39,443 nucleotides of DNA from Pseudonocardiales bacterium. Its GTDB lineage: Bacteria > Actinomycetota > Actinomycetes > Mycobacteriales > Jatrophihabitantaceae. Below the pieces are notes generated by a model, which worked only from the letters and a program-made list of their open reading frames with translations, was not told where the DNA came from and did not search any database. Below are positions 6,811 through 28,692 of the stretch, piece by piece. The stretch is from assembly GCA_030840445.1 (NCBI GenBank), contig JAVEEN010000018.1:1-39443 (forward strand). Direction: 5' to 3'. A program made the translations under genes and the position numbers. Positions within the stretch are counted from its first letter, which is position 1. Each line of letters starts with the position of its first letter.

Positions 6811-7583
6811 TGAGCGGATATCCCAACTTCACGGTCGAGATCATCGAGTCGGTGGCCACGGTGACGATCGACCGTCCGGACAAGCGCAATGCCCTGACGA
6901 TCGGAATGTGGCAACAGCTGTCGGCCATCTGCGCCGAGCTACGCTCCAATCACCAGCTCCGCGCCGTGGTCGTGACCGGCGCCGGGTCGTCCTTCTGCGC
7001 AGGCGCGGACATCACGGCGCTGTCCGAGGACGACGCGAGCATGAAGGCCGCGGTCTACCAGGCCGAAGAGGCGTTACGGCGACTGCCGGTACCGACCGTG
7101 GCCAAGATCCGCGGGTACTGCATGGGCGGTGGCAACCAGATCGCCGTGGCCTGTGATCTGCGGATCGCCGACACCTCCGCGATCTTCGGCGTTCCGCCGG
7201 CCAAGCTCAGCGTGGTTTACCCGGTTAACTCCACGCGTTGCCTGGTGGAACTGATCGGACCTGCCGAGGCCAAACGCCTGATTTTCACGGCCGTTCCCAT
7301 CGACGCGCCCGAGGCGCTGCGCATCGGGCTGGTCAACCAGGTGGTGCCGGCCGAAGCCCTCGACACCGAAGTGGCAGGCGTCATTGCGTCGATGCTGCCG
7401 CTGGCGCCGATGACCCAGGCCGCGTCGAAGGATTTGATCAATGCGATCGCCGATGGTGCCGACGCCGAGGCGCTGCATCAGCGCTGGTACGCAGAATGGT
7501 CGAAGAGTCCGGATGGTGTCGAGGGCCCGACGGCCTTTCTCCAGAAGCGCAAACCTGCGTTCAGCTGGCGCCCGACAAGCTAA
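6810..7583 (+). CDS. crotonase-fold (enoyl-CoA hydratase/isomerase family) protein lacking both catalytic Glu
   Basis: A 257-residue crotonase-superfamily acyl-CoA enzyme. The oxyanion-hole segments SSFCAGADI and GYCMGGGNQIAVACDLRIA are intact. However, the two glutamates that catalyse water addition in classical hydratases (rat Glu144 in GGGCE and Glu164 in GQPE) align with Gln in GGGNQ and Pro in GVPPAK, and the usual AGGTQRL is replaced by VNSTRCL. It therefore probably keeps acyl-CoA binding but performs another reaction, such as decarboxylation, hydrolysis or isomerisation; the reaction is unassigned. The ATG at 6810 overlaps the preceding stop by one base. The 3' end overlaps the oppositely oriented MATE gene by 23 bp. 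Confidence 0.88.
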   Translation: MSGYPNFTVEIIESVATVTIDRPDKRNALTIGMWQQLSAICAELRSNHQLRAVVVTGAGSSFCAGADITALSEDDASMKAAVYQAEEALRRLPVPTVAKIRGYCMGGGNQIAVACDLRIADTSAIFGVPPAKLSVVYPVNSTRCLVELIGPAEAKRLIFTAVPIDAPEALRIGLVNQVVPAEALDTEVAGVIASMLPLAPMTQAASKDLINAIADGADAEALHQRWYAEWSKSPDGVEGPTAFLQKRKPAFSWRPTS

Positions 7584-8967
7584 CTGCGGGTCCCGCTGAG
7601 TCAGCCGAGCGTCTGGCGAAGCGGCGCAGCAGCAGTGTCGCGGTCGCCGCCAGCCCGATCAGCAGGCCGCTCCAGACGCCGACGGTGTCGTGGCGTGTTG
7701 CCTTCCCCATCAACCAGGCAAGGGGTAGACCGATCAGCCAGTAGCCGATCAGGGTGATCCGGAATCCGCCGACGGTGTCATCGAGCCCGCGCAGTAGGCC
7801 GATTCCGATGTTCTGCGCGCAGTCGAAAATCTGCAGTGCCGCCGCGATCATTAGCAGGTTCGACGCGATGGACAACGCCGCATCGTCGGATGATCGATTC
7901 GGATCGAAGAACAACCGCAGGACCAGGTGCGGCTCGAGTAGATACACCGCAGCCGCCAGCGTCATCGCTATGGCGCCGCAGGCGAGTGCGGTCCGCGCCA
8001 GCCGCATAGCGGCCTGCGGGCGTCCTAGCGCGATGGTACGGCTGACGATGATCGAGGCGGCGTGGGAGAGCCCGACCGCTATCTGAAACACGATGTACAC
8101 CAGCTGATTCACGGCGGTGTGCGCGGCCAGGGCGGCGCCGCCGAAGGTGCCGATGATCAGGGCGATCACCGAGAAGAAGCCCGCCTCAGAGCCGTAGGTG
8201 GCGGCAATCGGCAGTCCGAGGCGGGCGAGTCGGCGCAGCGTAGCTGGGTGCGCGTGCCAGATCCTCAGCGACAGTAGCGGCGCCAGTTCCGGATCGCGTC
8301 GGGCGGAAAGGTATAGCGCAGCACCTGAGAGTAGGTATACCAGTGACGTAGCCAGCCCGATGCCGACCAAACCCAACCGGGGCAGGCCGAAGGTGCCGTG
8401 GATGAGCACCCAGTTCAGGCTGGCGTTGCCCGCAACGCAGGCCAGCGTGATCTTCAGGAGGGCCTGTGGTCGACGCATACCGACGGTGACCTGGCGGATC
8501 GCCTGAAACCACAGGCACGGCAACAGTCCGGGCGCTAATGCCCACAACACGGGACGGGCCCGATCGACCAGCTCCTTCGATTGCCCCAACCAGCCTATGG
8601 CCTCACCGCTGAGGCCGATCAGGATCGCCCCGACCACCCCGGCGACGGTCGCCAATGCCAGCGCGGCTCGAAGGAGCTCACGCAATTCACTATGGCGCTC
8701 GGCTGCCTTCTTGGGGGCAACCTCGGCGCGGGCGGCGGCGGCCGCGACCTGGTTACCGACGGCAGTGAGCAATCCGACGCCCATGGTGCGTAGTTGATTG
8801 AAGATTACGAGGGCCAACCCGCCTGCGGCCAGTGCCTCGGCGCTGATCCGGCTCATCATCACCGTGTCGGTGGTGGTGAGTGCCACCTGCGCGAGTTGCG
8901 TCAGAGCGAGCGGGACGGCAAGGGCGGCTAACGACCTGCTGTCATGAAGATAGTCAGCCGGGCGCAT
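7561..8967 (-). CDS. MATE family exporter of the metallophore operon
   Basis: A 468-residue multidrug-and-toxin-extrusion (MATE) transporter with about 12 hydrophobic segments. The family-typical N-terminus has PLALTQLAQVALTTTDTVMMSRI and the second half repeats the fold (LGLPIAATYGSEAGFFSVIALIIGTFG). MATE proteins export organic molecules using Na+ or H+ gradients. It is the last gene of the leftward operon, and its ATG overlaps the stop of the SbnA-like gene by one base (TGATG). I infer that it secretes the small molecule made by the four upstream enzymes, the role played by SbnD (an MFS protein) in staphyloferrin B clusters. Several membrane segments use non-optimal codons compared with icd. 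The 3' end converges on and overlaps the crotonase gene by 23 bp. Family is certain, substrate inferred. Confidence 0.92.
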   Translation of the reverse strand: MRPADYLHDSRSLAALAVPLALTQLAQVALTTTDTVMMSRISAEALAAGGLALVIFNQLRTMGVGLLTAVGNQVAAAAARAEVAPKKAAERHSELRELLRAALALATVAGVVGAILIGLSGEAIGWLGQSKELVDRARPVLWALAPGLLPCLWFQAIRQVTVGMRRPQALLKITLACVAGNASLNWVLIHGTFGLPRLGLVGIGLATSLVYLLSGAALYLSARRDPELAPLLSLRIWHAHPATLRRLARLGLPIAATYGSEAGFFSVIALIIGTFGGAALAAHTAVNQLVYIVFQIAVGLSHAASIIVSRTIALGRPQAAMRLARTALACGAIAMTLAAAVYLLEPHLVLRLFFDPNRSSDDAALSIASNLLMIAAALQIFDCAQNIGIGLLRGLDDTVGGFRITLIGYWLIGLPLAWLMGKATRHDTVGVWSGLLIGLAATATLLLRRFARRSADSAGPAVSLSGAS

Positions 8968-9998
8968 CAGATCCCACGGAGCTTGCGGAGCAACTCATCG
9001 ACTTCATGTTCGGCCCCGGCATCGATGAGATCGTGGGCGCTCATCCACTCGTCATTGAAGACGCTGTCGAGATATTTCTCGCCGCCGTCGCAGACCAACG
9101 CCACCATGCTGATTCCGGGAGCCGAAGACGGAAGTCGACGCAGCGCCTCGAACACCACCCCACCGGCGGAGCCACCGATCAGCAGACCGGTGCGGGCAGC
9201 CACCACCCGCGCGGTCGCGAACGCGTCGATGTCGGAGACCTTCACGCCCTCGTCGATCAGACCGAAGTCGACCAGTGCCCCGGTCTCGACACCGGGTGGC
9301 GTGCCGGTGCCGGACTGGTAGTACTCGCCGCCGGGGCCGCCGAAGGCGATCGAACCGACCGGCTCGACACCGATCACGGTGATCGCACCGATCCTGCGGT
9401 GCAGTTCCAGCGCGGTGCCACACAGCGAGCCTCCGGTTCCCACCGCGCCGATGAGCTGATCGATGCGTCCGTCGAGTGCGTCAATGAGTTCACGCGCGAG
9501 GTCGTAGTAGCCGGCGGCGTTGCTCGGATTGTTGTGCTGCTCGGTGAAGATGGTGTTGTCGGCACCCCTGGCCAGTTGTTCGGCGAGTTCCTCCCGTGCG
9601 GCGGTGGACAACTCCTCATTGCCGTCGTCGACGACGTAGACAAGCTCGGCTCCTAGCGCCTTCATGCCGCGAAGCTTGTCGGCGCAGGCGTGGTTGTCGA
9701 CGACCGCGGTAAAGGTGTACCCACGTTCAGCGGCGATCACGGCCAGTCCGAGACCGGTGTTGCCCGAGGTGGATTCGATGATCCGGCCGTTGGAGCGCAG
9801 CTCACCGCGGCTCTCGGCGTCCAGCACCATCTGGCGCGCCATCCTGATCTTGGCCGTTCCGGTGGGGTTGTATTGCTCGAGTTTCAGCAGCAGCCGGCTG
9901 CCGGTTTCGGTGCGACAGAGTTCGAACAACGGCGTGTAGCCGATGAGATCGGAGACCTGAGAGACGATTGCCGGGCGGTGCAGCGTCTGTGCGGTCAT
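8967..9998 (-). CDS. SbnA/cysteine-synthase-like PLP enzyme (C-N bond forming)
   Basis: A 343-residue fold-type II PLP enzyme. The PLP lysine is Lys50 in NPTGTAKIRMA. The substrate loop is ESTSGNTG and the phosphate-binding loop is GTGGSLCG. In CysK the lysine is followed by Asp-Arg; here it is Ile-Arg. Context points to SbnA rather than cysteine biosynthesis: the operon also holds an SbnB-like dehydrogenase and a PLP decarboxylase. SbnA joins O-phosphoserine and glutamate into N-(2-amino-2-carboxyethyl)-L-glutamate, and SbnB then releases 2,3-diaminopropionate. The frame extends upstream to 10358 inside the decarboxylase gene, so ATG 9998 (MTAQTLHRP) is chosen. It lies 28 bp after that gene's stop and has only a weak ribosome-binding site. 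An ordinary cysteine synthase is the alternative reading. Confidence 0.85.
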   Translation of the reverse strand: MTAQTLHRPAIVSQVSDLIGYTPLFELCRTETGSRLLLKLEQYNPTGTAKIRMARQMVLDAESRGELRSNGRIIESTSGNTGLGLAVIAAERGYTFTAVVDNHACADKLRGMKALGAELVYVVDDGNEELSTAAREELAEQLARGADNTIFTEQHNNPSNAAGYYDLARELIDALDGRIDQLIGAVGTGGSLCGTALELHRRIGAITVIGVEPVGSIAFGGPGGEYYQSGTGTPPGVETGALVDFGLIDEGVKVSDIDAFATARVVAARTGLLIGGSAGGVVFEALRRLPSSAPGISMVALVCDGGEKYLDSVFNDEWMSAHDLIDAGAEHEVDELLRKLRGI

Positions 9999-10026
9999 CG
10001 CAACTTGCCCGGTGACGGAGCTTCGG

Positions 10027-11388
10027 TTACTGGGCATGCCGGTCCAGGCGCCAACGGATTCGGTCGGCGCAGTCCAGTACGACCTTCGGCGGCAGCGGCG
10101 CTTCGTGAAACGTCGATTCGTTCGAGTCCATCTGGTAGCCGGCTGTGTTGAGATAGACGAGCAGGTCACCGACTTTGGGTCGACGCGGTAGGGGAATCTT
10201 GCGCCAGCTGAGCATGTCTGCTTCCAGGCAACTGGCGCCGCCGATGCAGGCCGGGAAAGGTCCGTCTGATTCGGTGCCGGTCTCTGGTAGCAGCACCGGC
10301 TCCGGCAGGTACTCGCTGTTGAACCACTGCTCGGACAGGCTGAGGCTGGTGCCGTCAACGGTTACGATGCCGTATTCGCGGGCCTTGACACCCTGCACCC
10401 GGAACACCGTGAAGCCTGCCTGGTCGAGCAATGCCCGACCGGGTTCGAGCAGCAGCGCGGTGTCCGATGAACGCAGCATGGTGGCCAGACTTGCGTGCCC
10501 GCCGGCGGGGCGGGCCGCCAGCACCGCCCGCAGCATCCGGGCGCCGGCGATCGGCGAGTGATAGGGGTAGAAGTCCCCGAACGTCTTGCCGGCATGGAAG
10601 TGTTCGGCACGCTCATCATAGGTGAAGCGGTGCCAATCCGGCGCGTCGACGTAGTCCACGGCAAAGCCGCCACCAATGTTGATCCGGTCGGCCCGAAGCC
10701 CCCACGCCCGAGCGAGCAGGCAGTGGTCGATCAGCTGGCCGGCCAGGTCCGCCCGTGCCTGAATTCGGTATCCGGAAAGGTGAAAGCTGAACCCGGTCAT
10801 CTCTATGACTGAGGTGTTGTCGATGCAACGCCGTAACGCCGTAAGGATCGCGTGGTCGTCCAGACCGAACCTGCTGTCCGGCTGATCGGGCGGCAGGCAG
10901 CGCAGCAGAATGCGGACCGGGCGCAGGGTGGTGGCCAGCAGGATGACACGATCCAGCTCATCCAAGGCATCGATGGCGATCAGGCAGTCCTGCAGGATCG
11001 CGATGCTCAGCAACGCATCGGACTTCGCCGGACCGGTAACCACAAGGTCGGTCCCGCGAACACCGTGCGACATGGCCTCGCGCAATTCCCCGACACTGGA
11101 CACGTCCACTCCGATGTCGTTGCGGGCGCACCGTTCGATCCAGCAGGCGGCCTTGTTCGCCTTCTTCGCGTAGTAGATCCGGGCGTCGACGCAGCCGTCG
11201 GCCAGAACCGATTTGAAGGCAGCGACGTTTGCGTCGAAGGTATCAGGCAGCAGTATGTGGAACGGTCCGCCGAGGCCGTGTGATAGCTCGTCCAGCAGCG
11301 GGCTCCGCATCACCTGACGTACCCGAGCGCTGCGTCGTGCGGGCAGGGTGGGGAAGTCGACCACCTGTTGGTTAACAGTTATCGCCAT
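10027..11388 (-). CDS. fold-type III PLP-dependent decarboxylase (SbnH/LysA-like, possibly Y4yA type)
   Basis: A 453-residue member of the alanine-racemase-fold amino-acid decarboxylases (ornithine/diaminopimelate/SbnH group). Visible motifs: YYAKKANKA with the PLP lysine at about residue 76, GVDVSSVGELREA, SFHLSG, the PLP-phosphate loop INIGGGFAVDY, EPGRALLDQAG and the active-site GASCLEADML near the C-terminus. The sequence style recalls the Y4yA subgroup known from rhizobial siderophore-like clusters, but I cannot verify this. SbnH decarboxylates a citryl-diaminopropionate intermediate; here the substrate is unknown and may be the product of the SbnA/SbnB-like pair. The ATG overlaps the end of the dehydrogenase gene by 10 bp, consistent with translational coupling. 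It is longer than SbnH (about 400 residues). Confidence 0.87.
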   Translation of the reverse strand: MAITVNQQVVDFPTLPARRSARVRQVMRSPLLDELSHGLGGPFHILLPDTFDANVAAFKSVLADGCVDARIYYAKKANKAACWIERCARNDIGVDVSSVGELREAMSHGVRGTDLVVTGPAKSDALLSIAILQDCLIAIDALDELDRVILLATTLRPVRILLRCLPPDQPDSRFGLDDHAILTALRRCIDNTSVIEMTGFSFHLSGYRIQARADLAGQLIDHCLLARAWGLRADRINIGGGFAVDYVDAPDWHRFTYDERAEHFHAGKTFGDFYPYHSPIAGARMLRAVLAARPAGGHASLATMLRSSDTALLLEPGRALLDQAGFTVFRVQGVKAREYGIVTVDGTSLSLSEQWFNSEYLPEPVLLPETGTESDGPFPACIGGASCLEADMLSWRKIPLPRRPKVGDLLVYLNTAGYQMDSNESTFHEAPLPPKVVLDCADRIRWRLDRHAQ

Positions 11389-12377
11389 AGCGGGATCACC
11401 GTCCCGAGACCCTCGGCGATTGCCTGCTGAGCGAATCGGTGGCCGAGGGCGATGTCGGTGACGACCAAGCCGCTGTTGTAGGCGAATATCCGCTCGGAGT
11501 CATCACGGCGGCCTCCGTGCCGGCTGGAGAACACAGCGGGAAACTCGGCCGCCACGGTGGGCAACCGGCCGTCGGGATCGGCCATGTCAACGCCGGTCAC
11601 GGCCATCTGCGCCGCGCTGGTGGCGAGTACCCGGTCGGCATGGTGCAACGTCGACGGGGCCAACCCGTGACCGACCAGTACCGACAGGGTGCCGGCTTTG
11701 AGCCAGTCCGCCTCGACCGCCGCCGGCGTGGCCGGTCCGGCAGCGGCGATCACCACATCGGCTTGCGCAGTCGCCGCCTGCAGGTCGGTGACGACTTCGA
11801 GGTCGCGCTCCGGGAAATACTTGTGCAACTGTTCGCGTACCGCACGGATACCGGCCGGGTGGGTGCCGAACAGCATCAACCGATCGAGATTGGGCAAGGT
11901 GGTCAGCAGAAAGGGCAACGCCAGCCGGCCCTGGGTGCCGGTGCCGATCACGAGTGCACTGCGACTGTCAGCTCTGGCGCAGGCGCCGGCGATCAGGGCC
12001 GAGACCGCCGGCGTGCGCAACGCGCCGATCCGAGCACAGTCCATCAGCGCTATCGGCCTACCGGTTGCATCGTCGTACAGGGTCAACGACGTGTAATAGC
12101 GTTGCCGGTCACGGTCACGCTCCGGATCGAACTTGTAGGAGGTCTTGATCGCGACAAGCTGCTGCTCGCCGTCTCGGCCGAGCATCGCGTACGCCACCGA
12201 ATGACCGTCGGCGGGTTTGACGGACAGCTTGCGCGGGTTGCTCGACACCTCGGCGGCCAAGGCCAGGTACGCCTGTTCGACGACATCCACCACCTCGGTC
12301 AAGTTGATCTCTAGACCGGCGATGTCAGCGGTATTGAGGACCCGCAACGTTCCCTCGGCTTCGGAGCGCGTCAGCAT
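11379..12377 (-). CDS. ornithine cyclodeaminase / SbnB-like NAD-dependent dehydrogenase
   Basis: A 332-residue protein of the ornithine cyclodeaminase / mu-crystallin family. The Rossmann loop VIGTGTQGRLALP lies near residues 143-155. The family's substrate-binding part precedes it (VAIKTSYKF around 78, then GRPIALMDCARIGALRTPAVSALIA). Family members include true ornithine cyclodeaminase, alanine dehydrogenase, imine reductases and SbnB, which oxidatively cleaves N-(2-amino-2-carboxyethyl)-L-glutamate to diaminopropionate and 2-oxoglutarate. The adjacent SbnA-like gene makes the SbnB role the best guess, although a reductase that forms a C-N bond in an opine-like chelator is also possible. 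Its ATG overlaps the oxygenase stop by 7 bp and its stop overlaps the decarboxylase start by 10 bp. Confidence 0.86.
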   Translation of the reverse strand: MLTRSEAEGTLRVLNTADIAGLEINLTEVVDVVEQAYLALAAEVSSNPRKLSVKPADGHSVAYAMLGRDGEQQLVAIKTSYKFDPERDRDRQRYYTSLTLYDDATGRPIALMDCARIGALRTPAVSALIAGACARADSRSALVIGTGTQGRLALPFLLTTLPNLDRLMLFGTHPAGIRAVREQLHKYFPERDLEVVTDLQAATAQADVVIAAAGPATPAAVEADWLKAGTLSVLVGHGLAPSTLHHADRVLATSAAQMAVTGVDMADPDGRLPTVAAEFPAVFSSRHGGRRDDSERIFAYNSGLVVTDIALGHRFAQQAIAEGLGTVIPLWR

Positions 12378-13435
12378 GGTGCCTCCAGGACGACCTGGCC
12401 GTAGCCGCGCTCGGCAGCCTCGGCAGCCGCTCTGGTACGGCGACCGGGCACCCGTACCGAGGCCCGCTTGAGCCAGCGATCGGTCCCGTCGAATCGGGCC
12501 CGAAACGGTACCCGGCCGTGAACTACGACGTCGTTGTCGACGACCAGCACCTCACCGGGGCGCAACGATACGGCCACCGTCACTCGCTCCAGTTCGGCCT
12601 CCAGCCGCCGGTAGGCCGACCGATAGGGTTCCTCGGCCTTCTCGAGCGGCGTGTAGGCCGGATCGAAGCGCAGCGTGAGCCCGGATGCCGACCGCCACAG
12701 TGCAGGCACCCTGGCGGGTAGTTGCGTCGATGCCTGGGCCTCGGTGTACGAATCGTCCGGCAGGATCGGCACGGTCGGGGTGCTCAACGTTGTGATGTCG
12801 TCCTCGCTGAGTTCGATCCGCCGGACGCTGGCGGCGGTGGTGGCGATCCCATCGGGATTGCGCATACACGCCAGCATCAGCAGATGGGCCCGGCCCGGGT
12901 GGAAGGCATCCTCGGTGTGAGGGCTCAGCAGCACCGAACTGCTGGCGCCGGTCTGCTCCTGTTCCCGCCCTTGGGCCGGCACGATGTTGTGAACGTAGCG
13001 GCCGTCCTGCTGTCCTTCCCAGGCGATCGGCCGGCCCATCACAGTTGCGAGCAGCAGCAGCGCGGCGTCCCACAGCGCAGCTGCGTCTTCGGCGACCGAC
13101 CAATGTTCGGGGGTTGGCTCCAGGGCTGCGGCGTCGACCGGCAGGCCACGCAACACGAACAGGCCGTCGGCGCTATCGCAGGGTGCGCACGCTTCACGCA
13201 GCCGATCGACCAGCCGGGCAGCGACGCCAGGCGTGGCCTTGAGCAGCTCGGGGTGCCGGGGTGATCCGTAGCCGGTGAGGAGCTGTCCAGCAGCCGCGGT
13301 CAGCTCGGTACGAGCGTCCGGATCGAGTTCGCGGATCGGGGCAACGTCGGTGAGTAAGGGCACAGGTTTGTCCGTTTCAGCTAGTAGGTCGCTGCGACTC
13401 ATCCGCTCATCAGCGGGCATAGACGGAGGAAGCAT
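12371..13435 (-). CDS. Fe(II)/2-oxoglutarate oxygenase, clavaminate synthase / AsnO / VioC-like
   Basis: A 354-residue non-haem iron oxygenase, first gene of the leftward operon. The metal triad is in the HxE form: His173 and Glu175 in HTEDAFHPGR and a distal His306 in VVVHGRVPFRARF. It is followed by FDGTDRWLKR, whose arginine would bind 2-oxoglutarate. HTE instead of HxD, together with the PHTEDAFHP and DGTDRWL blocks, is typical of the clavaminate synthase / L-asparagine oxygenase / arginine beta-hydroxylase group. That group beta-hydroxylates free amino acids in natural-product pathways. I infer hydroxylation of an amino-acid precursor, perhaps creating a metal ligand. The start is uncertain: ATG 13435 is only 4 nt from the predicted -10 (near-leaderless), and ATGs at 13420 and 13402 are in frame. 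It overlaps the next gene by 7 bp. Confidence 0.85.
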   Translation of the reverse strand: MLPPSMPADERMSRSDLLAETDKPVPLLTDVAPIRELDPDARTELTAAAGQLLTGYGSPRHPELLKATPGVAARLVDRLREACAPCDSADGLFVLRGLPVDAAALEPTPEHWSVAEDAAALWDAALLLLATVMGRPIAWEGQQDGRYVHNIVPAQGREQEQTGASSSVLLSPHTEDAFHPGRAHLLMLACMRNPDGIATTAASVRRIELSEDDITTLSTPTVPILPDDSYTEAQASTQLPARVPALWRSASGLTLRFDPAYTPLEKAEEPYRSAYRRLEAELERVTVAVSLRPGEVLVVDNDVVVHGRVPFRARFDGTDRWLKRASVRVPGRRTRAAAEAAERGYGQVVLEAPC

Positions 13436-13439
13436 CCGA

Positions 13440-13468
13440 AAACTAGCAATTTCTTGCTAATTAGGCAA
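13440..13468 (-). promoter_or_regulatory. predicted sigma70-type promoter of the biosynthesis/export operon
   Basis: On the minus strand, TTGCCT (-35, 13463-13468) is followed by exactly 17 bp and then TAGTTT (-10, 13440-13445). The -10 is preceded by TGC, as in an extended -10. The -35 lies inside the IdeR box, so metal-loaded IdeR would block polymerase. The -10 is only 4 nt from ATG 13435, so transcripts would be near-leaderless or use a slightly later start codon. Predicted by eye; the TSS is not known. Confidence 0.5.
13444..13459. repeat. perfect 6-bp inverted repeat beside the iron box
   Basis: TAGCAA and TTGCTA are separated by TTTC. The dyad ends one base before the IdeR box and its right arm coincides with the proposed -35 (TTGCTA) of the importer promoter. 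It may be a second operator or simply promoter sequence; the short arms make this tentative. Confidence 0.4.
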
Positions 13469-13482
13469 GCCTAACCTAATAT
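13454..13482 (+). promoter_or_regulatory. predicted sigma70-type promoter of the ABC importer operon
   Basis: TTGCTA (13454-13459), a 17-bp spacer, then TAATAT (13477-13482), an excellent -10 for a GC-rich actinobacterium. The spacer and the first bases of the -10 are covered by the IdeR box at 13461-13479, so bound repressor would occlude it. It leaves a leader of roughly 75-80 nt before the receptor ATG at 13567. Confidence 0.65.
13461..13479. promoter_or_regulatory. IdeR/DtxR iron box shared by two divergent operons
   Basis: The 19-mer TTAGGCAAGCCTAACCTAA matches the mycobacterial IdeR / corynebacterial DtxR consensus TTAGGTTAGGCTAACCTAA at 16 of 19 positions; mismatches are at positions 6, 7 and 10. 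IdeR with Fe2+ binds such sites and represses siderophore synthesis and uptake. The box overlaps the -35 of the leftward promoter and the spacer and -10 of the rightward promoter, so a single site can silence both operons. No second full box was seen elsewhere in the window. The surrounding 13436-13495 is strikingly AT-rich compared with flanking genes. Confidence 0.87.
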
Positions 13483-13566
13483 CACTTTTCATTCCGATGC
13501 GATCGCGGGCTTTGTTGCGGTGGAGTCCGGCAAACCGGATTACTTCCCGAAGGTGAGGAGCTGAGC

Positions 13567-15126
13567 ATGGGTCTGACAAGACGGCAATTCCTGTGGGCAG
13601 GCAGCGGCGTCGCAGCCACGACGGTGCTGGCCGCATGCGGGGTCGGCGACGGCGACGACACGGCGGCGAAGCCGGCCGCCGGCGCCGCGGGCACTCCCCG
13701 GCGCGGCGGCACCCTGCGCGTCGGTGCGCTCGGGCGTGCCGCGGCGATCACCCGCGACCCGCACGGGTCGCAGGTCAACGAGAGCGACTACCTGATCACC
13801 AGCCTTAGGTATGACACGTTGACCGTGCCCGCAGCCAGGTCGAACACCGCGCGTCGGCTGGCCTCGAATTGGGCCTCATCGGCGGATCTGAGGACCTGGC
13901 GTTTCACGATCGCGAAGGACGCCGCCTTCCATGACGGCGGACCGGTGACGGCAGCAGATGTGGCATGGTCGTTGCGTCGGCTGCGGTCCACCCCGGCCGG
14001 CGCGGCGAGGTTGCCCGGCATCCGGGCCGAGAACATCCGAGCGGAGGGTGCTCGCACGGTGGTGCTCGTGTCGGACTACCCGAACAATGCATTGCCGCTA
14101 CTGACCCGGTTGACGACCTTCGTCCTGCCCAAAGGCACCGCTGATTCCGCGATTGCCACCGCGCCGGGCTCCGGCCCGTTCAAACTCGACTGGTTCCGCG
14201 ACGGCAACGCCCGGTTAGTCCGCAACGATGCCTGGCACGGCGGGCGGGTACTACTCGATGCTATCGAGGTCCGGATCTTCGAGAGCCCACAAGCGATGAG
14301 CAATGCCTTACTTGCCGGGCAGATCGACGTCGCCTCCAACGTCGGCGCTGTTGCGGCACGGGCCGCGGTGGGACGCCCGGATGTCCGGATCATCCAGCGC
14401 CGGAACGACATGGCGATGCCGATTGTGATGCGTACCGCCGATGGGCCGTTCGCCGACCAACGGGTGCGCGAGGCGCTGCGGCTGGCGGTCGACCGCGACG
14501 CGATGGTGAGGCAGGTGCTCAGCGGCTACGGCGCGATAGGCAACGACGTGCTCGGTGCCGGAGATCCCATTTACGCCGTTGACCTGCCGCAGCGGCGACG
14601 CGACCTCGACACAGCACGCCGGCTGCTGGCCGAGGCCAAGTTCGACCTCAACTGGACGTATGACCTGCTGACCACCGAGGACGTCGCCGGGCTGGCCGAG
14701 TCGGCGACCCTGTTCGCCACTCACCTAGCCGAGGCGGGCGTCAAGATCAAGGTCGTGAAGCAGGATTCGGCGGTGTTCTGGGACAAGAGCTGGCTGAAGG
14801 CACCGCTGTACACGACCTACTGGGGCACAAACGATTCGGTGCTGTTCTTCGCCAGCAAGACCCTGGTATCCGACGCCGGGCAGAACGAAACCGCCTTTGC
14901 GGACAAGGCATTCGACGCCGCCTACCGCAAGGCGATCAGCTCGAACAACCCGAGCGAGACCAAGCAGTCGCTGCACGAGCTGCAAACGATCGAGTACGAC
15001 CGATCGGGATATCTGTTGTGGGGCATGGCCGATGGCATCGACCTGTCGTCGGCGCAAGTGCGGGGCCTGCCTGAACTGCCCGGCTACGGACGGGTACAAC
15101 TCGAGCGGGCATGGCTCGCCGGCTGA
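13567..15126 (+). CDS. ABC importer substrate-binding lipoprotein, SBP family 5 (Opp/Dpp/Nik type)
   Basis: A 519-residue extracytoplasmic receptor. The N-terminus has a twin-arginine motif (TRRQFL, residues 4-9), a hydrophobic stretch and a lipobox ending at Cys24 (VLAAC), so it should be Tat-exported and lipid-anchored outside the membrane. The rest follows the SBP_bac_5 pattern of peptide, nickel and opine-metallophore receptors (GGTLRVG near 50, TWRFTIAKDAAFHDGGPVTA, VREALRLAVDRD). A GGTGAGGAG-type ribosome-binding site precedes ATG 13567. Two in-frame TTA leucine codons (14215 and 14308) and an AGG arginine are unusual beside neighbouring housekeeping genes. It is the first gene of the rightward IdeR-controlled operon, so I infer it captures a metal-chelate; peptide binding is the alternative. 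Confidence 0.9.
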   Translation: MGLTRRQFLWAGSGVAATTVLAACGVGDGDDTAAKPAAGAAGTPRRGGTLRVGALGRAAAITRDPHGSQVNESDYLITSLRYDTLTVPAARSNTARRLASNWASSADLRTWRFTIAKDAAFHDGGPVTAADVAWSLRRLRSTPAGAARLPGIRAENIRAEGARTVVLVSDYPNNALPLLTRLTTFVLPKGTADSAIATAPGSGPFKLDWFRDGNARLVRNDAWHGGRVLLDAIEVRIFESPQAMSNALLAGQIDVASNVGAVAARAAVGRPDVRIIQRRNDMAMPIVMRTADGPFADQRVREALRLAVDRDAMVRQVLSGYGAIGNDVLGAGDPIYAVDLPQRRRDLDTARRLLAEAKFDLNWTYDLLTTEDVAGLAESATLFATHLAEAGVKIKVVKQDSAVFWDKSWLKAPLYTTYWGTNDSVLFFASKTLVSDAGQNETAFADKAFDAAYRKAISSNNPSETKQSLHELQTIEYDRSGYLLWGMADGIDLSSAQVRGLPELPGYGRVQLERAWLAG

Positions 15127-16082
15127 GCCGCCGATACGGCCCGGCCGTGCGGCGGATCGCGATGGGCATCGCCCGGCGGGTGCTGATGCTGTTCCTACTA
15201 CTCGCGTTGGTGTTCGCGGCGGTGCAACTGCTGCCCGGTGACGCAGCGACCGCTACCGCCGAACGTGGGTCGAATGCGGAGGAGGTGGCGGTGGTCCGGA
15301 CCCGGCTGGGCTTGGACCGGCCGCTGCCCGAGCGGTTCCTGCACTGGCTGAGCGATCTGTTGACCGGTGGTCTCGGGACGTCGGCGCGGGGAGAGCACGT
15401 CAATCAGCTGCTGAGCGGCCCGTTCGCCAACACGGTCCTGCTCGGGCTGCTGGCGCTGGTCATCACGGTGAGCCTGTCCCTGCCGCTGGGCTGCTGGGCC
15501 GCGTTGCGCCCGGGCGGCGTTCCGGATCGGATCGTGTCCACGGCGGCCACCGCAGTGCTGGCGCTGCCCGAGTTCGTGATCGCGGCAGCGCTGGTCCTCG
15601 TGCTGGCGCTCTGGACGGGTTGGTTGCCGGCGGTCACCGTGGCGAACGAACGCGGCGCGCCGACTTCGTGGTCCATGCTGGTGCTGCCGGTGTTGGCCTT
15701 GGCGATCCCCCAGATCGGCTGGAACACCCGGATCGTGCGCGCCGCCCTCGCGGACGAGGCCAAAGCGGCCTATGTCGCGATGGCGGTGCTGGACGGCCTC
15801 ACGCGGCGCCGGATCCTCAGTCACCACCTACTGCCGGGGGCGTTGCCCGCTATCGCGGCGGGTGCCGCTACCTCGACCGGAATGCTCCTCGGCGGAGCCG
15901 CCGTGGTCGAGACCGTCTTCAACTACCCCGGTGTCGGCGCGGTGCTCGCCGGCGCCGTCGCCGATCGGGATACCCCGGTGATCGCAGCGGTTGTCGCACT
16001 CACCACAGCGCTCATCACCGTGGCGCTGCTGGTGTCGGATCTGGTGCGGGTCCGTGCCTCGATCGTGCGGGCGCGCCCATGA
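15111..16082 (+). CDS. ABC importer permease, DppB/OppB type
   Basis: A 323-residue inner-membrane permease with about six hydrophobic helices. The N-terminal MLFLLLALVFAAVQLLPGD block is the hallmark of DppB/OppB/NikB proteins. The cytoplasmic coupling loop (ADEAKAAYVAMAVLDGLTRRRILSHH segment, around 220-245) contacts the ATPase. The typical NYPGVG motif lies near 270. The ATG at 15111 is inside the last codons of the receptor gene (16-bp overlap), and the stop overlaps the next permease start. It would form half of the channel for the molecule bound by the lipoprotein. Confidence 0.92.
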   Translation: MARRLSRRYGPAVRRIAMGIARRVLMLFLLLALVFAAVQLLPGDAATATAERGSNAEEVAVVRTRLGLDRPLPERFLHWLSDLLTGGLGTSARGEHVNQLLSGPFANTVLLGLLALVITVSLSLPLGCWAALRPGGVPDRIVSTAATAVLALPEFVIAAALVLVLALWTGWLPAVTVANERGAPTSWSMLVLPVLALAIPQIGWNTRIVRAALADEAKAAYVAMAVLDGLTRRRILSHHLLPGALPAIAAGAATSTGMLLGGAAVVETVFNYPGVGAVLAGAVADRDTPVIAAVVALTTALITVALLVSDLVRVRASIVRARP

Positions 16083-16873
16083 GTCGTCGCCTGAGGGTGA
16101 TGTCGGCTCTGGCGCTGGTGTGCCTGGCTGTGATCGGGCCGTGGTTCGCGCCGCACTCCATCGAGCAACCGGTTTCAATTCCCTACGCAACACCTGGACG
16201 GCCGGCGTTGCTGGGCACCGACCAACTGGGACGCGACGTACTGAGCCGGGTACTGGCGGGCGGTCGAGAGCTGACTGCCACCGCGGTGCTGATCGCCGTG
16301 CTGGTCACGACGGCGGCGGCCCTGCTGGGCGCGTTGAGCGCGCTGCAGCCAGTATTCGGCCGGGTCCTCGAAGGTGCCTGCGACGTCGTGATGCTGCTAC
16401 CTGCTGTGCTCGGTGTTTTGCTGATCGCCTCGTCGTGGCCAGCCGGTGGCCGTTGGGCCATCATCACGACGGCGGTGGTGTTGGGCGTGCCATACACCGT
16501 GCGTTTGACCACAGCTGCCGCCGCGCCGATTGCCGAGTCCGGTTACGTGGAAGCGGCGATCGTCGGCGGGGAGCGGCTCTGGTACCTCATGCTGCGCGAG
16601 GTGCTGCCCAACATGCGCGCCACGGTGCTCGCACTGTTCGGGCTGCGCTTCGTCACCGCGGTCCCTCTCGTCGCGACCGCGGCGTTTCTTCAGGTCGGCC
16701 CGCAGCCGCCCGCAGCGGATTGGGCCTTGATGATCAGAGAGAACTCGGCCGGCATCATGTTGAACCCATGGGCGGTGCTGGCACCGAGCCTGGCGATCGG
16801 GCTGGTCGCCCTGGGAGTGACGCTGGCAGCTGAGGCCGTGACGCCCCGCGGCGGCCCGGTGCCGAGCCTGTGA
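16079..16873 (+). CDS. ABC importer permease, DppC/OppC type
   Basis: A 264-residue second permease. It shows the DppC signature LLGTDQLGRDVLSRVLAGGR (residues about 40-60) just after the first membrane helix, a coupling loop ESGYVEAAIVGGERLWYLML (around 150) and about six helices. The start ATG at 16079 overlaps the previous stop (ATGA), and the stop overlaps the GTG of the ATPase gene (GTGA). It is slightly shorter than typical DppC (about 280-300), with a brief N-terminal cytoplasmic part. It pairs with the upstream permease. Confidence 0.92.
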   Translation: MSRRLRVMSALALVCLAVIGPWFAPHSIEQPVSIPYATPGRPALLGTDQLGRDVLSRVLAGGRELTATAVLIAVLVTTAAALLGALSALQPVFGRVLEGACDVVMLLPAVLGVLLIASSWPAGGRWAIITTAVVLGVPYTVRLTTAAAAPIAESGYVEAAIVGGERLWYLMLREVLPNMRATVLALFGLRFVTAVPLVATAAFLQVGPQPPAADWALMIRENSAGIMLNPWAVLAPSLAIGLVALGVTLAAEAVTPRGGPVPSL

Positions 16874-18393
16874 GGCAGCTCGAGTCAGCGGTGCGGGTGC
16901 GGGACCTCAGGATCGAGGCCGACACCGCAACGGTGCTGCAGAACGGCGGTTCCCTGGAGGTTCATCGCGGCCAAGTGGTGGCGTTGGTCGGGCGGTCCGG
17001 GGTCGGCAAGACCACGCTGTTGCGTTCCATCATCGGTATTTTGCCCACCCGCACAAGGCTGATCTCAGGCCAGGTCGAGGTGTTGGGACGCAACGTGTTC
17101 GAGCTGTCCGACGTTGAGCGGCGCGCGTTCCGACGCCACCAGATCGGCTATGTCGGTCAAGATCCCGGCTCTTCGCTCAATCCACGGCTGCGGGTACGCA
17201 CCCTCGTCGCCGAGCTGGCGTCCACTCGTGATCGGCGGCGTGTGGATGCCCTCCTCGACCTGGTGCGCCTTCCGATCGACGAAGGCATTGCCGAACGTCG
17301 GGTACCGATGCTCTCTGGTGGCCAACAGCGTCGCGTTGCACTCGCTCGAGCGCTGGCCCGCGATCCTGCGGTACTGCTGCTGGACGAGCCGAGCGCCGGC
17401 CTCGATCCGGTGCTATGCGATGAGATAGCTGACGTGATTCGCTGGCTCGCCGACCAGAGCGGGCTCGCCGTGCTGCTCGCCTGTCACGACCACGCGCTGG
17501 TCTCCCGTCTCGCGGACAAGGTGATCACGCTGGAGCGCGCCGCCACCGCGCCACCGCCAGAAACGGTGGTTCCGACCGTCACATTGCGCACAGCGGTCAC
17601 GGCGCCGGTGATGACGGTGCGGGCGCTGTCGGCCCACGTTGGCCGAGGAGCCTCTGCCAGTCGAGTGCTGACCGACCTGGACCTCGACCTGGAGCAGGGC
17701 TGCTCAGTCGGCATCATCGGCGCATCGGGGTCGGGTAAGTCCACCCTGCTGCGTTCGATCATCGGGCTACACCCCGCGGACAGCGGCACCGTTACCGTGC
17801 ACGGCGCCAGCGTCGAACCCTCGGTTGCCAGGCGCAGCCGCAACGAGCGGCGATCAATCCAGCTGGTCGGCCAGAACCCGATGCTTGCCTTGAATCCGAG
17901 TCGAACGGTTGGCTCGACCATCGCACGACCATTGGGCCCAGATCACCGCACAACCTCGGCTGCCGTGCGCCAACGCGTGATCGAACTGCTCGACCAGGTC
18001 GGATTGTCGCCGGACTACCTGCAGCGCTATCCGCATGAATTGTCCGGCGGCCAGCGCCAGCGGGTATCGATCGCCCGAGCCCTGGCGGCCGATCCGTCCG
18101 TGCTGCTGTGTGATGAGCCGACCTCGGCCTTGGACAGCGAAACCGCGCGCACCATCATGACGCTGCTCGCACGGCTGCGGGCGCAGCACAGCCTTGCGCT
18201 GATTTTGGTAAGCCACGACGTAGCGCTTGCTGCAGCGCACTGCGACCGGATACTGGCGCTCGAGAATGGGCGAGCGGTCGAAATGGTCCGGGCCAGAAAT
18301 CCCGAAGCCGCAGCGTCAGGTGCCGAGGGCAAGGAGCATCGGCTTAGTCAGAAATCGTCGTCGAAGCCAACTGTGCCTGCGATGCCGACCTGA
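16870..18393 (+). CDS. fused double ABC ATPase (DppD-DppF type)
   Basis: A 507-residue protein with two complete nucleotide-binding domains. First half: Walker A GRSGVGKT (about residue 40), signature LSGGQQRRVALARAL (about 148), Walker B VLLLDEPSAGLD. Second half: Walker A GASGSGKS (about 285), signature LSGGQRQRVSIARAL (about 391), Walker B VLLCDEPTSALD. In most Dpp/Opp/Nik systems the two ATPases are separate genes; here one polypeptide supplies both. The GTG start at 16870 overlaps the permease stop by 4 bp, so all four importer genes are translationally coupled. The C-terminal extension after the second domain (from about 470) is low complexity. The gap to the next gene (18394-18467) shows nothing recognisable. 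Confidence 0.93.
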   Translation: MRQLESAVRVRDLRIEADTATVLQNGGSLEVHRGQVVALVGRSGVGKTTLLRSIIGILPTRTRLISGQVEVLGRNVFELSDVERRAFRRHQIGYVGQDPGSSLNPRLRVRTLVAELASTRDRRRVDALLDLVRLPIDEGIAERRVPMLSGGQQRRVALARALARDPAVLLLDEPSAGLDPVLCDEIADVIRWLADQSGLAVLLACHDHALVSRLADKVITLERAATAPPPETVVPTVTLRTAVTAPVMTVRALSAHVGRGASASRVLTDLDLDLEQGCSVGIIGASGSGKSTLLRSIIGLHPADSGTVTVHGASVEPSVARRSRNERRSIQLVGQNPMLALNPSRTVGSTIARPLGPDHRTTSAAVRQRVIELLDQVGLSPDYLQRYPHELSGGQRQRVSIARALAADPSVLLCDEPTSALDSETARTIMTLLARLRAQHSLALILVSHDVALAAAHCDRILALENGRAVEMVRARNPEAAASGAEGKEHRLSQKSSSKPTVPAMPT

Positions 18394-19491: not shown

Positions 19492-22488
19492 TCAGGCGAC
19501 GACGGTGAGCCTGGACGAGCCGTCGGGGTTCGGCCGGACTTCGATGCGCTCGGCGATCCGCATCTTCATCTCGGCGACATGGCTGACCACTCCGACCGTC
19601 CGGCCGCCGGTACGCAACGAGTCCAGCACGGCGAGCACTTCATCGAGGACCTCCGGATCGAGCGAGCCGAATCCCTCGTCGATGAACAGAGTGCCAAGGT
19701 CGACTCCGCCGGCTTCGGCACGAACCACATCGGCTAGGCCGAGAGCCAACGACAACGAGACGTAGAAGGTCTCGCCACCTGATAGCGTGCCCGGGTCCCG
19801 CGGCCGTCCGGTTCGCAGGTCGAGGACGCTCAGACCAAGTCCAGACTTGGCATTTCCGCTTCTGGCGTCGGTGTGTTCGAGTTCGTACCGGCCACCGGAG
19901 ATACGGCGGAGCTGGGCATTGGCGGCGCTGACCACGTCCTCGAATCGCCGGACCAGTACGTAGGTGGTGAGCTCCATCTTCAGCTGATTATCGCCAGACC
20001 CCGCGGCCAGGTTGCCTAGCCGGATCACCGCTGCGGTCTCGGCGAGAACCCCAGCACCGGTAAGCATCAACTGTGTCACCACCCGGCCATGTTCGGCTGA
20101 CGAATCCCATTGAGCCCGGGTCGAGCCACTCAGCGCCGCCAGTTCGGCCTCGAGTTGCTCGGCGTCCAGGACGGCGTCGGTCAGCGGTGCCAGCCCCGGG
20201 GCCGGCGCGTCCAGCGCGGGATCGAGGAGTTCAGCCTCGGAGAGTTGTGAGTGAACCGCGCGCCATTCTTCGTCAAAACCGTCGACCGCAGTGCGCAACT
20301 GCGCGATCTCCGCTGTGCTGCGCCGGGCCGCCGACCAGGTCAGTTCGTCCTCGAAGCCTGCGGCGGTGAGCGCTTGAGCGAACAGCTCGCCGCATTCGAC
20401 TGCGCGAGCCAGGGCGACCGCGGCGGTGGCGGACGCGGCGGCAGCCGCATCGAGGTCGGTGACCAGATGTTCCAGGGCAACCAGCCGATCGGCTACGCAC
20501 CGATATTCAGCCCTCGCCGCGTCGACCAGCCGACGGCTTTCGGCCACCTGGGCGGCCATCGTGTCAGCGCGTTCGGCCAGGCCGGCGCGGGCTATCTCGG
20601 CGTGGGAGACCTGCTCCTCGAGCTGGCGGGACCGTTGCTCGGTGTCGGTGAGCTCGGCGTCCAGCTCGGTGCAGCGCTCACCGGCCAGCCGGGCCTCGAG
20701 CACCGCCTGCTCGAGTTGGTCCACCTTGGCCTGGGCCTGCTGCGGACTGAGCTGATCGGCGATGATCTGGAGCTCGACAAGCTGTGCTTCTTGTTTGGTC
20801 AGCTGCCCCTGAGCTGACTGCATCGCCCGGCGCAATCGTTGGGATTCGGCTTCGGCGCCATCGAGATCGTCCTGACTGACATGGTGCTTTTTCGGCCGGG
20901 CCGGCTTCGGATGCACGGCTGAGCCGCACACCACGCAGGGCGCACCGGCGGTCAGCGCCCGGCCGAGTTCGCCGGCGACACCGGCCCGCCACGACACTCG
21001 CATGCCGGCCAGAGCCTGTTCCTGCTGATCCCAGGCCGCATGAGCGGCCAAGGTGATCTGGCGCTCCTGGGCCAGCGTGGCGGCTGCCTCGGTTGCCTGC
21101 ACCGCGGCGGCCCGACGTTGGTGTGCTCGATCTGCCTCAGCAGTCAGCCCAGCCTGCTGTGCGGCGACGATGGCGAAGCTCGCCCGTGCGTGGCGGAGTT
21201 CGGTTATGCGGCCGGGGAGTAGGTTCAGTTCGTCGCGGGCCTGTGCAATCAGCGCGCCCAGCCCTTCGGCCTCGGCGGCGGTCCGGGACAGGTCACCGAC
21301 GATGGCTGGCAGCTGATTCTCACGTCTGAGGTCCTCGGCCAGCTCGCCGATACGCTGGCGAACTTCGGCGGCGGCGGTCCGAAGCTCTGGCTCCGCCGCG
21401 GCGGTCAACGGGCCGCTGAGAGCGGCCCGCGCGGCGCGGTCGGCTTCCTGGCCCGCATCGGATGCCGCGATTGCCGCGCCGAGCGAATCCGCGGCGGGAT
21501 CGACCCGCTGTGCCAGCTCAGCTGCCGCAAGTTCGGCCCGGTCGGCGTTGATCGGCTCCAGTAGCGCGATCAACTGGCCGCGTTGGGCGAGCAGCGCGGC
21601 CCGTTTGGATATGCGGCGTAACAGGTCCCGTCCGGATTCCAGCGATCGTTGCGCCGAGATCCTTGCTCGGGTGGCTTCGGCCCTGCGGGTGCTGGCCGCG
21701 TTGGCTGCCGCCTCGAGATCGGCGAGCAGGTTGAGTACGAACGCCTCCAGTTCGGCATGCCGACCCTGTTCGATGGCCAGCTCCGCCTCGGCCGCGATGT
21801 TTCCGGCAGCGCCCGAAGCTCCGACGAACGCCTGCACGGCCCTGCTCAGCGCGATCCTGCTTCCGGCTCGACGCTGTTCGGCGGCCTTGCGGGCCTCGAC
21901 CAGTCGTTCCTGGGTGCGCGCCAGCACCTGCGTGCCGAAGAGCTTCTGCAACAACGCTCGCTTGTCGTCGGTCTTCGACCGCAGAAAATTCGCGAACTCG
22001 CCCTGCGGCAGTACTACCGTCTGCACGAACTGGTCGTGGCTCAGGCCGATAGCCCGGGTGATCTCGTCATCGGCTTCGGAGACCCGGGTCGACAGCGGTT
22101 CGCCGCCATCGGGATCGTCCGGGTGGGTGATGCGCCAGATCTTGACCGTGCCGTTGACCCGGGTCGTACCGGAACCGTGCTTCTTCGGACGGTCGAAAGT
22201 GGGCGTTCGGCGGACCCGGTAGCTGCCGTTCTGGGTCTCGAACACCAATTCGACTACCGGCTCCGTCCCGGGATCGGCGTGGTGGGAGCGCAACCGCTCG
22301 CCGTGGGCCGAGAGCTGGGCCACCTTGCCGTAGAGCGCGAACGAGATCGCGTCGATCACGGTGGACTTGCCCGCACCGGTCGGGCCCTCGAGGAGGAAGA
22401 GACCGCTGTCGCCGAGCCGGGTGAAGTCGATGTCGGCCCGGCCGGCGAACGGGCCGATCGCCACCATGGTGAGGCGGTGTAGCCGCAT
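19492..22488 (-). CDS. sbcC: exonuclease SbcC, SMC-like ATPase subunit
   Basis: ATPase subunit of the SbcCD (Mre11-Rad50-like) nuclease that processes hairpins and DNA ends. The 998 residues show an N-terminal Walker A (GPTGAGKST, about 34-42) with the following IDAISFALYG. Long Ala/Glu/Arg-rich coiled coils come next, interrupted by the zinc hook CVVCG (about 518-522). A second coiled coil follows, then the C-terminal ABC signature LSGGETFYVSLSLALGLAD and Walker B LFIDEGFGSLD. The ATG overlaps the sbcD stop by one base (TGATG), so the subunits are coupled. Length is typical for actinobacterial SbcC. Confidence 0.96.
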   Translation of the reverse strand: MRLHRLTMVAIGPFAGRADIDFTRLGDSGLFLLEGPTGAGKSTVIDAISFALYGKVAQLSAHGERLRSHHADPGTEPVVELVFETQNGSYRVRRTPTFDRPKKHGSGTTRVNGTVKIWRITHPDDPDGGEPLSTRVSEADDEITRAIGLSHDQFVQTVVLPQGEFANFLRSKTDDKRALLQKLFGTQVLARTQERLVEARKAAEQRRAGSRIALSRAVQAFVGASGAAGNIAAEAELAIEQGRHAELEAFVLNLLADLEAAANAASTRRAEATRARISAQRSLESGRDLLRRISKRAALLAQRGQLIALLEPINADRAELAAAELAQRVDPAADSLGAAIAASDAGQEADRAARAALSGPLTAAAEPELRTAAAEVRQRIGELAEDLRRENQLPAIVGDLSRTAAEAEGLGALIAQARDELNLLPGRITELRHARASFAIVAAQQAGLTAEADRAHQRRAAAVQATEAAATLAQERQITLAAHAAWDQQEQALAGMRVSWRAGVAGELGRALTAGAPCVVCGSAVHPKPARPKKHHVSQDDLDGAEAESQRLRRAMQSAQGQLTKQEAQLVELQIIADQLSPQQAQAKVDQLEQAVLEARLAGERCTELDAELTDTEQRSRQLEEQVSHAEIARAGLAERADTMAAQVAESRRLVDAARAEYRCVADRLVALEHLVTDLDAAAAASATAAVALARAVECGELFAQALTAAGFEDELTWSAARRSTAEIAQLRTAVDGFDEEWRAVHSQLSEAELLDPALDAPAPGLAPLTDAVLDAEQLEAELAALSGSTRAQWDSSAEHGRVVTQLMLTGAGVLAETAAVIRLGNLAAGSGDNQLKMELTTYVLVRRFEDVVSAANAQLRRISGGRYELEHTDARSGNAKSGLGLSVLDLRTGRPRDPGTLSGGETFYVSLSLALGLADVVRAEAGGVDLGTLFIDEGFGSLDPEVLDEVLAVLDSLRTGGRTVGVVSHVAEMKMRIAERIEVRPNPDGSSRLTVVA

Positions 22489-23654
22489 CAGAGCCGCCCC
22501 ACGTCGGCGAGTGCCTCCCGGTAGGCCTGCTCGAATGCTTCCAGCTCGGCACCGTCGGCCTCCAGGCCGGTGACATGCCGGACGAAGTCTGCGGCCAGCG
22601 TGCGCGGCGAGCGTTCAGCGGCCGGCTCGGATGCTGAACGGCCGACCTCGACGGCACCGGCGGGGAGGTGGAAGACCTGCAGGACGTGCGGGAAACGGGA
22701 CTTGATCCGATCGAACATCTGGTCGGGGCGGGACCGGTCAGTGACCGTCACGCGGACCCAGCCATCGACGTGGGCGTCCAGCGAATCCGCGGTCAGCAAC
22801 TCGTCCAGGCTGCCGGCGATCTCGGCCATATCCCGCGGCTGAACGAGGTCCTGCTGGTTCAGTTGGACCGGACCGGCGGTCGGGACGTCGACGAGCGTGA
22901 CGGATTTGGTCTGCGTCCGCTCTGAGAAGGAGTACCGCAGCGGTGATCCGCTGTAGCGCAGCACGGTGGCCGACCTGCTGTTCGGTTGCTGGGCGCCGTG
23001 CAGGTGCCCGAGGGCCGCGTAGTCAACGCCGTCGAAAGTCCCGGCACTGACATGATCCACGCCGCCTACCACGATCGGGCGCTCACTCTCGCTCGCGGCG
23101 CCTCCGACGACGAACGCGTGCGCCATCACGATCGAACGGGTACCGGGTGGCCGGGTAGCCAGGTCGGCGCGGACCCGGTCCATAGCCGCGGTCATGACCG
23201 CCTGGTGAGAACGGGCCAACAACTGCTCACCGGTGCGCAGCCCGGCGCGTGCCACGTCGGGGTCCAAGTAGGGCAGCGGATAGACAGCGGTGTTGCCGAT
23301 CATCACGGGCGTGCCTACGGTGGCCAGCGAGGTTCGGATGTGCAGCCGTCCGGTGAACAACTCCGAGCCGAAGCCGAGCCGGATCGCCGAGTCATGGTTG
23401 CCCGCGGTGATGATCACATTGGTGTGCGCGGTGAGGTCCTTCAGCGTGTCGGCGAACAGCGCGACTGCCTCGACCGGTGGTACTGCCCGGTCGTAGAGAT
23501 CACCGGAGATCAGCACCGCATCGACCGTGCGGCCGTCGACCGGATCGGTCACCAGGCCGGTGATTTGGGCCAGCACACCACGCTGGGCGTCGAGCAGGTC
23601 GACGCCGTGCAGCGTTCGGCCCAGATGCCAGTCGGAGGTGTGCAGGAACCGCAT
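22488..23654 (-). CDS. sbcD: exonuclease SbcD, Mre11-like nuclease subunit
   Basis: Mn2+-dependent nuclease subunit partnering SbcC. The 388 residues begin with the phosphoesterase signature HTSDWHLGRTLHG (Asp and His metal ligands). LISGDLYDRAVPP follows, then AGNHDSAIRLGFG (GNHD catalytic motif, about 95) and ALGHLHGAQ (GHxH, about 215). The SbcD C-terminal domain follows. ATG 23654 (MRFLHTSDWH) is the family-standard start. The gene is divergent from the aldo/keto reductase gene, with 77 bp between them and no defined promoter. Confidence 0.96.
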   Translation of the reverse strand: MRFLHTSDWHLGRTLHGVDLLDAQRGVLAQITGLVTDPVDGRTVDAVLISGDLYDRAVPPVEAVALFADTLKDLTAHTNVIITAGNHDSAIRLGFGSELFTGRLHIRTSLATVGTPVMIGNTAVYPLPYLDPDVARAGLRTGEQLLARSHQAVMTAAMDRVRADLATRPPGTRSIVMAHAFVVGGAASESERPIVVGGVDHVSAGTFDGVDYAALGHLHGAQQPNSRSATVLRYSGSPLRYSFSERTQTKSVTLVDVPTAGPVQLNQQDLVQPRDMAEIAGSLDELLTADSLDAHVDGWVRVTVTDRSRPDQMFDRIKSRFPHVLQVFHLPAGAVEVGRSASEPAAERSPRTLAADFVRHVTGLEADGAELEAFEQAYREALADVGRL

Positions 23655-26768: not shown

Positions 26769-26793
26769 GGAGACCTTTCTCGAGGCGGACAGC

Positions 26794-27711: not shown

Positions 27712-27713
27712 GG

Positions 27714-28679: not shown

Positions 28680-28692
28680 GGCCGTCCTCGGT

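Follow-up and report, generated by a model that had tools for sequence, protein, structure and literature searches.

A probable EDHA-type siderophore gene cluster in a Pseudonocardiales genome

Nine genes in two divergent operons

A 39,443-nucleotide stretch of DNA from a Pseudonocardiales bacterium (assembly GCA_030840445.1, contig JAVEEN010000018.1; hereafter the window) carries nine genes that form, with high probability, a cluster for an aminopolycarboxylate siderophore of the type of EDHA, or ethylenediaminesuccinic acid hydroxyarginine. The source is a metagenome-assembled genome (MAG) of 4.34 Mb in 402 contigs, 92% complete, of which the window is contig C2. An initial annotation had placed nine genes in two divergent operons at 7561-18393, and this is borne out by the positions of the open reading frames and by Pfam and NCBIfam profile searches, which also confirm the families then proposed: SbnA-like and SbnB-like enzymes, a decarboxylase, a VioC-type oxygenase, a MATE protein and a full Opp/Nik-type ABC importer. 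The cluster spans 10.8 kb, and all nine frames are open.

The minus-strand operon begins, from the centre outward, with a VioC/OrfP/GntD-type Fe(II)/2-oxoglutarate oxygenase (12371-13435; 354 aa; TauD 4.8e-13), followed by an SbnB-like enzyme of the ornithine cyclodeaminase (OCD) family (11379-12377; 332 aa; OCD_Mu_crystall 4.1e-26), a fold-type III decarboxylase dependent on pyridoxal phosphate (PLP) (10027-11388; 453 aa; Orn_Arg_deC_N 2e-16), whose plasmid homologues are annotated Y4yA, an SbnA-like PLP enzyme (8967-10037; PALP 1.6e-59) and a MATE family protein (7561-8967; 468 aa; MatE 3.6e-35), which is likely to be the siderophore exporter. The plus-strand operon encodes the parts of an Opp/Nik-type importer: a substrate-binding protein (13567-15126; 519 aa; SBP_bac_5 6.7e-64), an Opp/NikB-type permease 1 (15111-16082; BPD_transp_1 3e-29; best NCBIfam matches Opp2B/NikB), an Opp/NikC-type permease 2 (16079-16873; BPD_transp_1 6.9e-16) and a fused double ATPase of the NikD plus NikE type (16870-18393; 507 aa; two ABC_tran stretches). 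The top NCBIfam families are SbnA, a LysA-like decarboxylase, SbnB, a GntD/VioC-type oxygenase and Nik/Opp-type transporter parts, with the scores of the five biosynthetic and import enzymes all under the curated cut-offs: 221.6 bits against 349.95 for SbnA (TIGR03945), 107.1 against 326.9 for SbnB (TIGR03944), and 251.5 (GntD) and 215.8 (VioC) for the oxygenase, both likewise below.

The coupling of genes proposed for each operon also holds, in that same-strand neighbours overlap. On the minus strand the overlaps lie at 12371-12377 (SbnB-like and oxygenase), 11379-11388 (decarboxylase and SbnB-like), 8967 (MATE and SbnA-like) and 10027-10037 (SbnA-like and decarboxylase), the last provided that the SbnA-like gene starts at the ATG at 10037 and not at the alternative ATG at 9998. 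On the plus strand the binding-protein and permease 1 genes share 15111-15126, the ATG of permease 2 at 16079 falls on the permease 1 stop, and the ATPase start at 16870 precedes the permease 2 stop at 16873.

Relatives, active sites and the iron box

A search of genomes for this gene order had been proposed with the initial annotation. With the decarboxylase as query at least 405 loci were found, of which the best 80 were compared, so that the set leans towards close relatives; loci are denoted by L numbers. The full nine-gene layout is collinear in 62 of the 80. Of the remaining 18, eleven are truncated where a contig or stretch ends (L036, L048, L051, L052, L057, L060, L067, L073, L077, L090, L112), and seven truly differ: L068, L076, L087 and L104 are without a full importer, L103 is without a MATE match, and L109 and L113 are without an oxygenase. 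The closest relative among the matches listed is another Pseudonocardiales MAG, BP_206 (L036), with 96% identity in the decarboxylase and 92-97% over its four genes; its record begins inside the SbnB gene, so that any oxygenase gene would lie beyond its edge. Among 394 sampled genomes of the class, the source genome included, a decarboxylase match was found in 12 at E<=5e-122 and in 20 at 1e-40. Viral contigs gave 137 pattern matches, none of them a relative by tblastn.

In the four importer-poor loci the biosynthetic and MATE genes are collinear, and no full Opp-type importer stands alongside. The genes flanking L087, L076 and L104 differ from one another; a scan of nine flanking proteins of L087, L030, L031, L076 and L104 (L068, L029, L109 and L113 were outside it) showed no obvious replacement importer, the proteins scanned including a P-type ATPase, a DUF222/HNH protein and a BTAD regulator. 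The Streptosporangium minutum locus L103 has the importer and the biosynthetic genes, with no MATE match although its stretch runs about 9 kb past the SbnA-like gene.

Residue conservation was counted over the best-80 loci with L030 and L031 added. All 79 relatives aligned for the SbnA-like enzyme retain the lysine that we take to bind PLP, and all 82 aligned for the decarboxylase retain Lys76 and Cys387, presumably active-site residues. For the oxygenase the nearest solved structures are L-arginine hydroxylases and their kin (4m23, which we take to be OrfP, 6daw, CmnC and VioC); its iron triad and two aspartates align with OrfP, CmnC and 6daw. His173, Glu175, His306, Arg320, Gln143, Asp227 and Asp258 are each unchanged in 76 of the 77 relatives aligned, the remaining one having a gap. 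These seven are assumed, after work on VioC and OrfP, to contact iron, 2-oxoglutarate and arginine, and the two aspartates presumably bind the guanidine group. The retained triad and aspartates are what a hydroxyarginine-bearing product would predict, and the enzyme may accordingly be read as a putative arginine hydroxylase. In VioC, OrfP, CmnC and GntD the same family acts on antibiotic or toxin precursors, whereas the window enzyme would act in a siderophore pathway.

Between the operons lies an IdeR/DmdR-type iron box, TTAGGCAAGCCTAACCTAA (13461-13479), as the initial annotation had proposed, with three mismatches to the 19-base consensus to which all mismatch counts refer. A second, weaker IdeR-like site occurs in the window at 35761 (five mismatches); of 20 single-base shuffles of the window, 18 held no site with five or fewer mismatches and two held one. 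At that threshold a box lies 5' of the oxygenase gene in 73 of 80 relatives, compared with two of 400 stretches taken from other parts of these loci and one of 80 shuffled regions, shuffling again being by single bases. To enter this count a locus had to show an oxygenase match preceded by 300 bases or more of sequence; of the 80 that did so, 74 belong to the best-80 set and the rest are L026, L027, L028, L030, L031 and L032. Some of these six duplicate loci of that set, L026 and L062 sitting on equally long contigs. Two Fe_dep_repress proteins score above cut-off in a profile search of the source genome. The nine-gene system is probably iron-linked.

Relation to the EDHA cluster and competing readings

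EDHA is described as an aminopolycarboxylate siderophore by Spohn et al. 2018, as cited in excerpts of PMC8914351, PMC11888242 and PMC10702961. In those excerpts the reference strain is Streptomyces sp. MA5143a, with four genes, AesA-D (PMC10702961); the cluster is MIBiG BGC0002567, with a count of 1,450 windows across 24 genera (PMC11888242); and S. scabiei 87-22 has, as the seventh of its siderophore clusters, an 11 kb EDHA cluster, scab_5231 to scab_5311, that the authors' antiSMASH run overlooked (PMC8914351). In both MA5143a (L083) and S. scabiei 87.22 (L040), all nine genes are contiguous, in the same order and on the same strands as in the window, with a divergent promoter that holds an iron-box-like site. 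The L040 cluster measures about 10.9 kb, and scab_5231 to scab_5311 makes nine tags if numbering runs in tens. Between the window and MA5143a, protein identity ranges from 52 to 73%: 68% for the oxygenase, 73% for the SbnB-like enzyme, 60% for the decarboxylase, 69% for the SbnA-like enzyme, 69% for the MATE protein (in the same position), 71% for the binding protein, 66% and 71% for permeases 1 and 2, and 52% for the ATPase, over 230 aligned residues only. MA5143a and S. scabiei are 74-91% identical by gene.

The orthology, the gene order, the iron-box sequence and the conserved active-site residues are direct observations. Because the nine genes are collinear with those of L040 and L083 and orthologous to them, and because the iron box and the oxygenase residues agree, the locus is very likely an EDHA-type siderophore cluster. 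Judged from gene content, the SbnA-like, SbnB-like, decarboxylase and oxygenase genes would correspond to AesA-D, the SbnA-like enzyme taking the AesA-type role. The initial annotation had foreseen an undescribed chelator. This part of it does not stand, since the same nine-gene layout has already been reported as the EDHA cluster of Streptomyces; the locus is not a novel system but a further member of the EDHA cluster family, in a Pseudonocardiales MAG. With it the known EDHA clusters extend to an uncultured Pseudonocardiales lineage, and the 62 collinear loci offer a panel for testing the order of enzyme steps and the products of oxygenase-less versions.

From EDHA's name, with its ethylenediamine bridge and its succinic and hydroxyarginine arms, and from the enzyme set, we infer a pathway, including every enzyme step with its order and partner, the product in this host, the iron response, export and import. 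At low iron an IdeR-type repressor, suggested by the box, would leave the divergent promoter. The SbnA-like enzyme would form aminoacrylate from serine or phosphoserine and attach it by a C-N bond to the amino group of arginine or aspartate; the SbnB-like enzyme, running the chemistry of SbnB in reverse, would then reductively aminate a 2-oxo acid with the second amine, making another C-N bond. Removal of the serine-derived carboxyl by the decarboxylase would leave an ethylenediamine bridge between a succinate arm, from aspartate, and an arginine arm, whose arginine part the oxygenase would hydroxylate. The MATE protein would export the product, and the ABC system would re-import its iron complex. 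The chemistry first proposed, in which the PLP enzyme itself builds the C-N bonds before decarboxylation or hydroxylation, was reasonable and is broadly what EDHA implies, though each enzyme step still stands as a proposal.

Several points weigh against the EDHA assignment. The window's lineage is deep: its four biosynthetic enzymes are 60-73% identical to the reference, while those of MA5143a and S. scabiei are 78-91% identical to each other. A changed amino acid partner is conceivable. L040 is equated with scab_5231 to scab_5311 by strain, size and gene count rather than by locus tags. Seven of the 80 relatives have no box with five or fewer mismatches (L030, L043, L076, L080, L087, L106, L114), two of them, L087 and L114, being Pseudonocardia loci, and the boxes of the reference loci L040 and L083 are weak, with five mismatches to the window's three. 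In trees of the SbnA-like enzyme and of the decarboxylase (28 rows each, with 27 loci picked from the 90 of L026-L115), the window's partner is L036 both times. The SbnA-like tree speaks for the assignment: there the two fall within a supported set of 23 rows (98/97) with oxygenase-bearing clusters, from which L029 and L113, both lacking an oxygenase, and the distant L033-L035 are absent. The decarboxylase tree places L033-L035 outside (99/98), but its support for the window's place among oxygenase-bearing clusters is weak (87/76); that set would part the window and Streptomyces-type clusters from mycobacterial, Nocardia-like and Pseudonocardia rows.

One competing reading is that the cluster makes a sister chelator of EDHA, with the same ethylenediamine-forming core and an arginine-type oxygenase but another amino acid or 2-oxo acid as an arm. 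The deep branch and the 60-73% identity of the biosynthetic enzymes would suit this, as would the occurrence of the core without the oxygenase elsewhere, from which partners probably vary; yet all nine genes follow the order of the reference clusters, the oxygenase residues are unchanged and the binding protein is 71% identical to that of MA5143a, and such a product is quite improbable. A broader form is unlikely, in which an EDHA relative with a different arm belongs to a wider set of ethylenediamine-bridged chelators of actinobacteria and rhizobia, all made by a common core of SbnA, SbnB and Y4yA decarboxylase, with and without oxygenase. Among characterized members of the class, the aminopolycarboxylate ethylenediamine disuccinate (EDDS) of Amycolatopsis japonicum is made without a non-ribosomal peptide synthetase (NRPS) by related PLP and SbnB-like enzymes; as a disuccinate it has no arginine part, hence no oxygenase is expected. 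Its cluster is zinc-regulated according to excerpts of PMC10486106 and a reference title in PMC9248904. The kinship to such compounds proposed at the outset was right, but EDDS itself is an unlikely product because the window has a VioC/GntD-type oxygenase and an iron box, a comparison that draws on descriptions of EDDS, the EDDS locus itself and Zur sites lying outside it.

The joint presence of SbnA-like, SbnB-like and fold-type III decarboxylase genes, shared with staphyloferrin B (SbnA, SbnB, SbnH), would suit that siderophore, or another that uses diaminopropionate, provided that some other part of the genome carried an NRPS-independent siderophore (NIS) or NRPS gene to complete it. A profile search of the source genome (about 92% complete) for IucA/IucC, which gave a match in an E. 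coli control, returned none, extending to the whole genome what the initial annotation had noted locally (no genome-wide search covered the ATP-grasp or nicotianamine-synthase families). Its remark that no NRPS was in sight fares similarly: the sole, putative Condensation-domain match comes from an isolated frame of 471 aa in contig C335, and an NRPS product was set aside on that ground. Staphyloferrin B is therefore very unlikely; moreover, the enzyme scores lie under the SbnA and SbnB cut-offs, the nine genes recur as a unit in the 62 collinear relatives, and the oxygenase and Opp-type importer are not known to have a part in its pathway. Equally remote is the possibility that the genes serve cysteine or proline metabolism and the import of an amino acid, with no metallophore made: the enzyme families do include cysteine synthases and ornithine cyclodeaminases, but the iron box recurs in 73 relatives, the oxygenase and exporter are retained in all 62 collinear loci, and the locus is collinear with a cluster for which a siderophore product has been reported. 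No link to rhizobactin-type ethylenediamine chelators is claimed; excerpts of PMC7676072 mention no SbnA-type enzyme.

Oxygenase-less versions and neighbouring genes

Cores without an oxygenase on mycobacterial and rhizobial plasmids are a more open lead than the window cluster itself. On the M. avium plasmid pMAH135 (L121, 5208-10699), cysteine synthase-like, OCD/SbnB-like, Y4yA decarboxylase and MATE genes stand together, with no oxygenase annotated alongside in an incomplete gene table. The mycobacterial loci L029, L109 and L113 gave no oxygenase or importer match; their decarboxylases are 54-55% identical to that of the window, their SbnA-like enzymes only 32-36%. The Agrobacterium vitis plasmid pRvVAR031a (L122, 892-11753) has an operon of OCD, Y4yA, cysteine synthase and MATE genes. 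Divergent from it are the four genes of an ABC importer, one of them for an ATPase; the operon is followed by genes that carry the annotation of an iron ABC importer, and no oxygenase is annotated. Loci of this rhizobial kind possibly make another ethylenediamine-type chelator. A decarboxylase match below 60% identity occurs in 85 plasmid records, 56 of them from Sinorhizobium, Rhizobium or Agrobacterium; the gene context was viewed in two. A literature search for the Y4yA family as a PLP-dependent enzyme gave no match. L033-L035 combine a distant decarboxylase (30-33%) with a nearby SbnA-like gene, and neither an SbnB-like enzyme nor an oxygenase was matched there at 1e-8.

Elsewhere in the window, 19492-23654 holds SbcC-like (998 aa) and SbcD-like genes, the SbcC name coming from reading of the sequence only. 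A further group at 24753-32457 comprises a GH42 beta-galactosidase (24753-26810), sugar-type ABC permeases (26794-27711 and 27714-28679) with their binding protein (28693-30027), a galactokinase-like kinase (30284-31519) and an epimerase (31441-32457), and is likely a galactoside-use operon.

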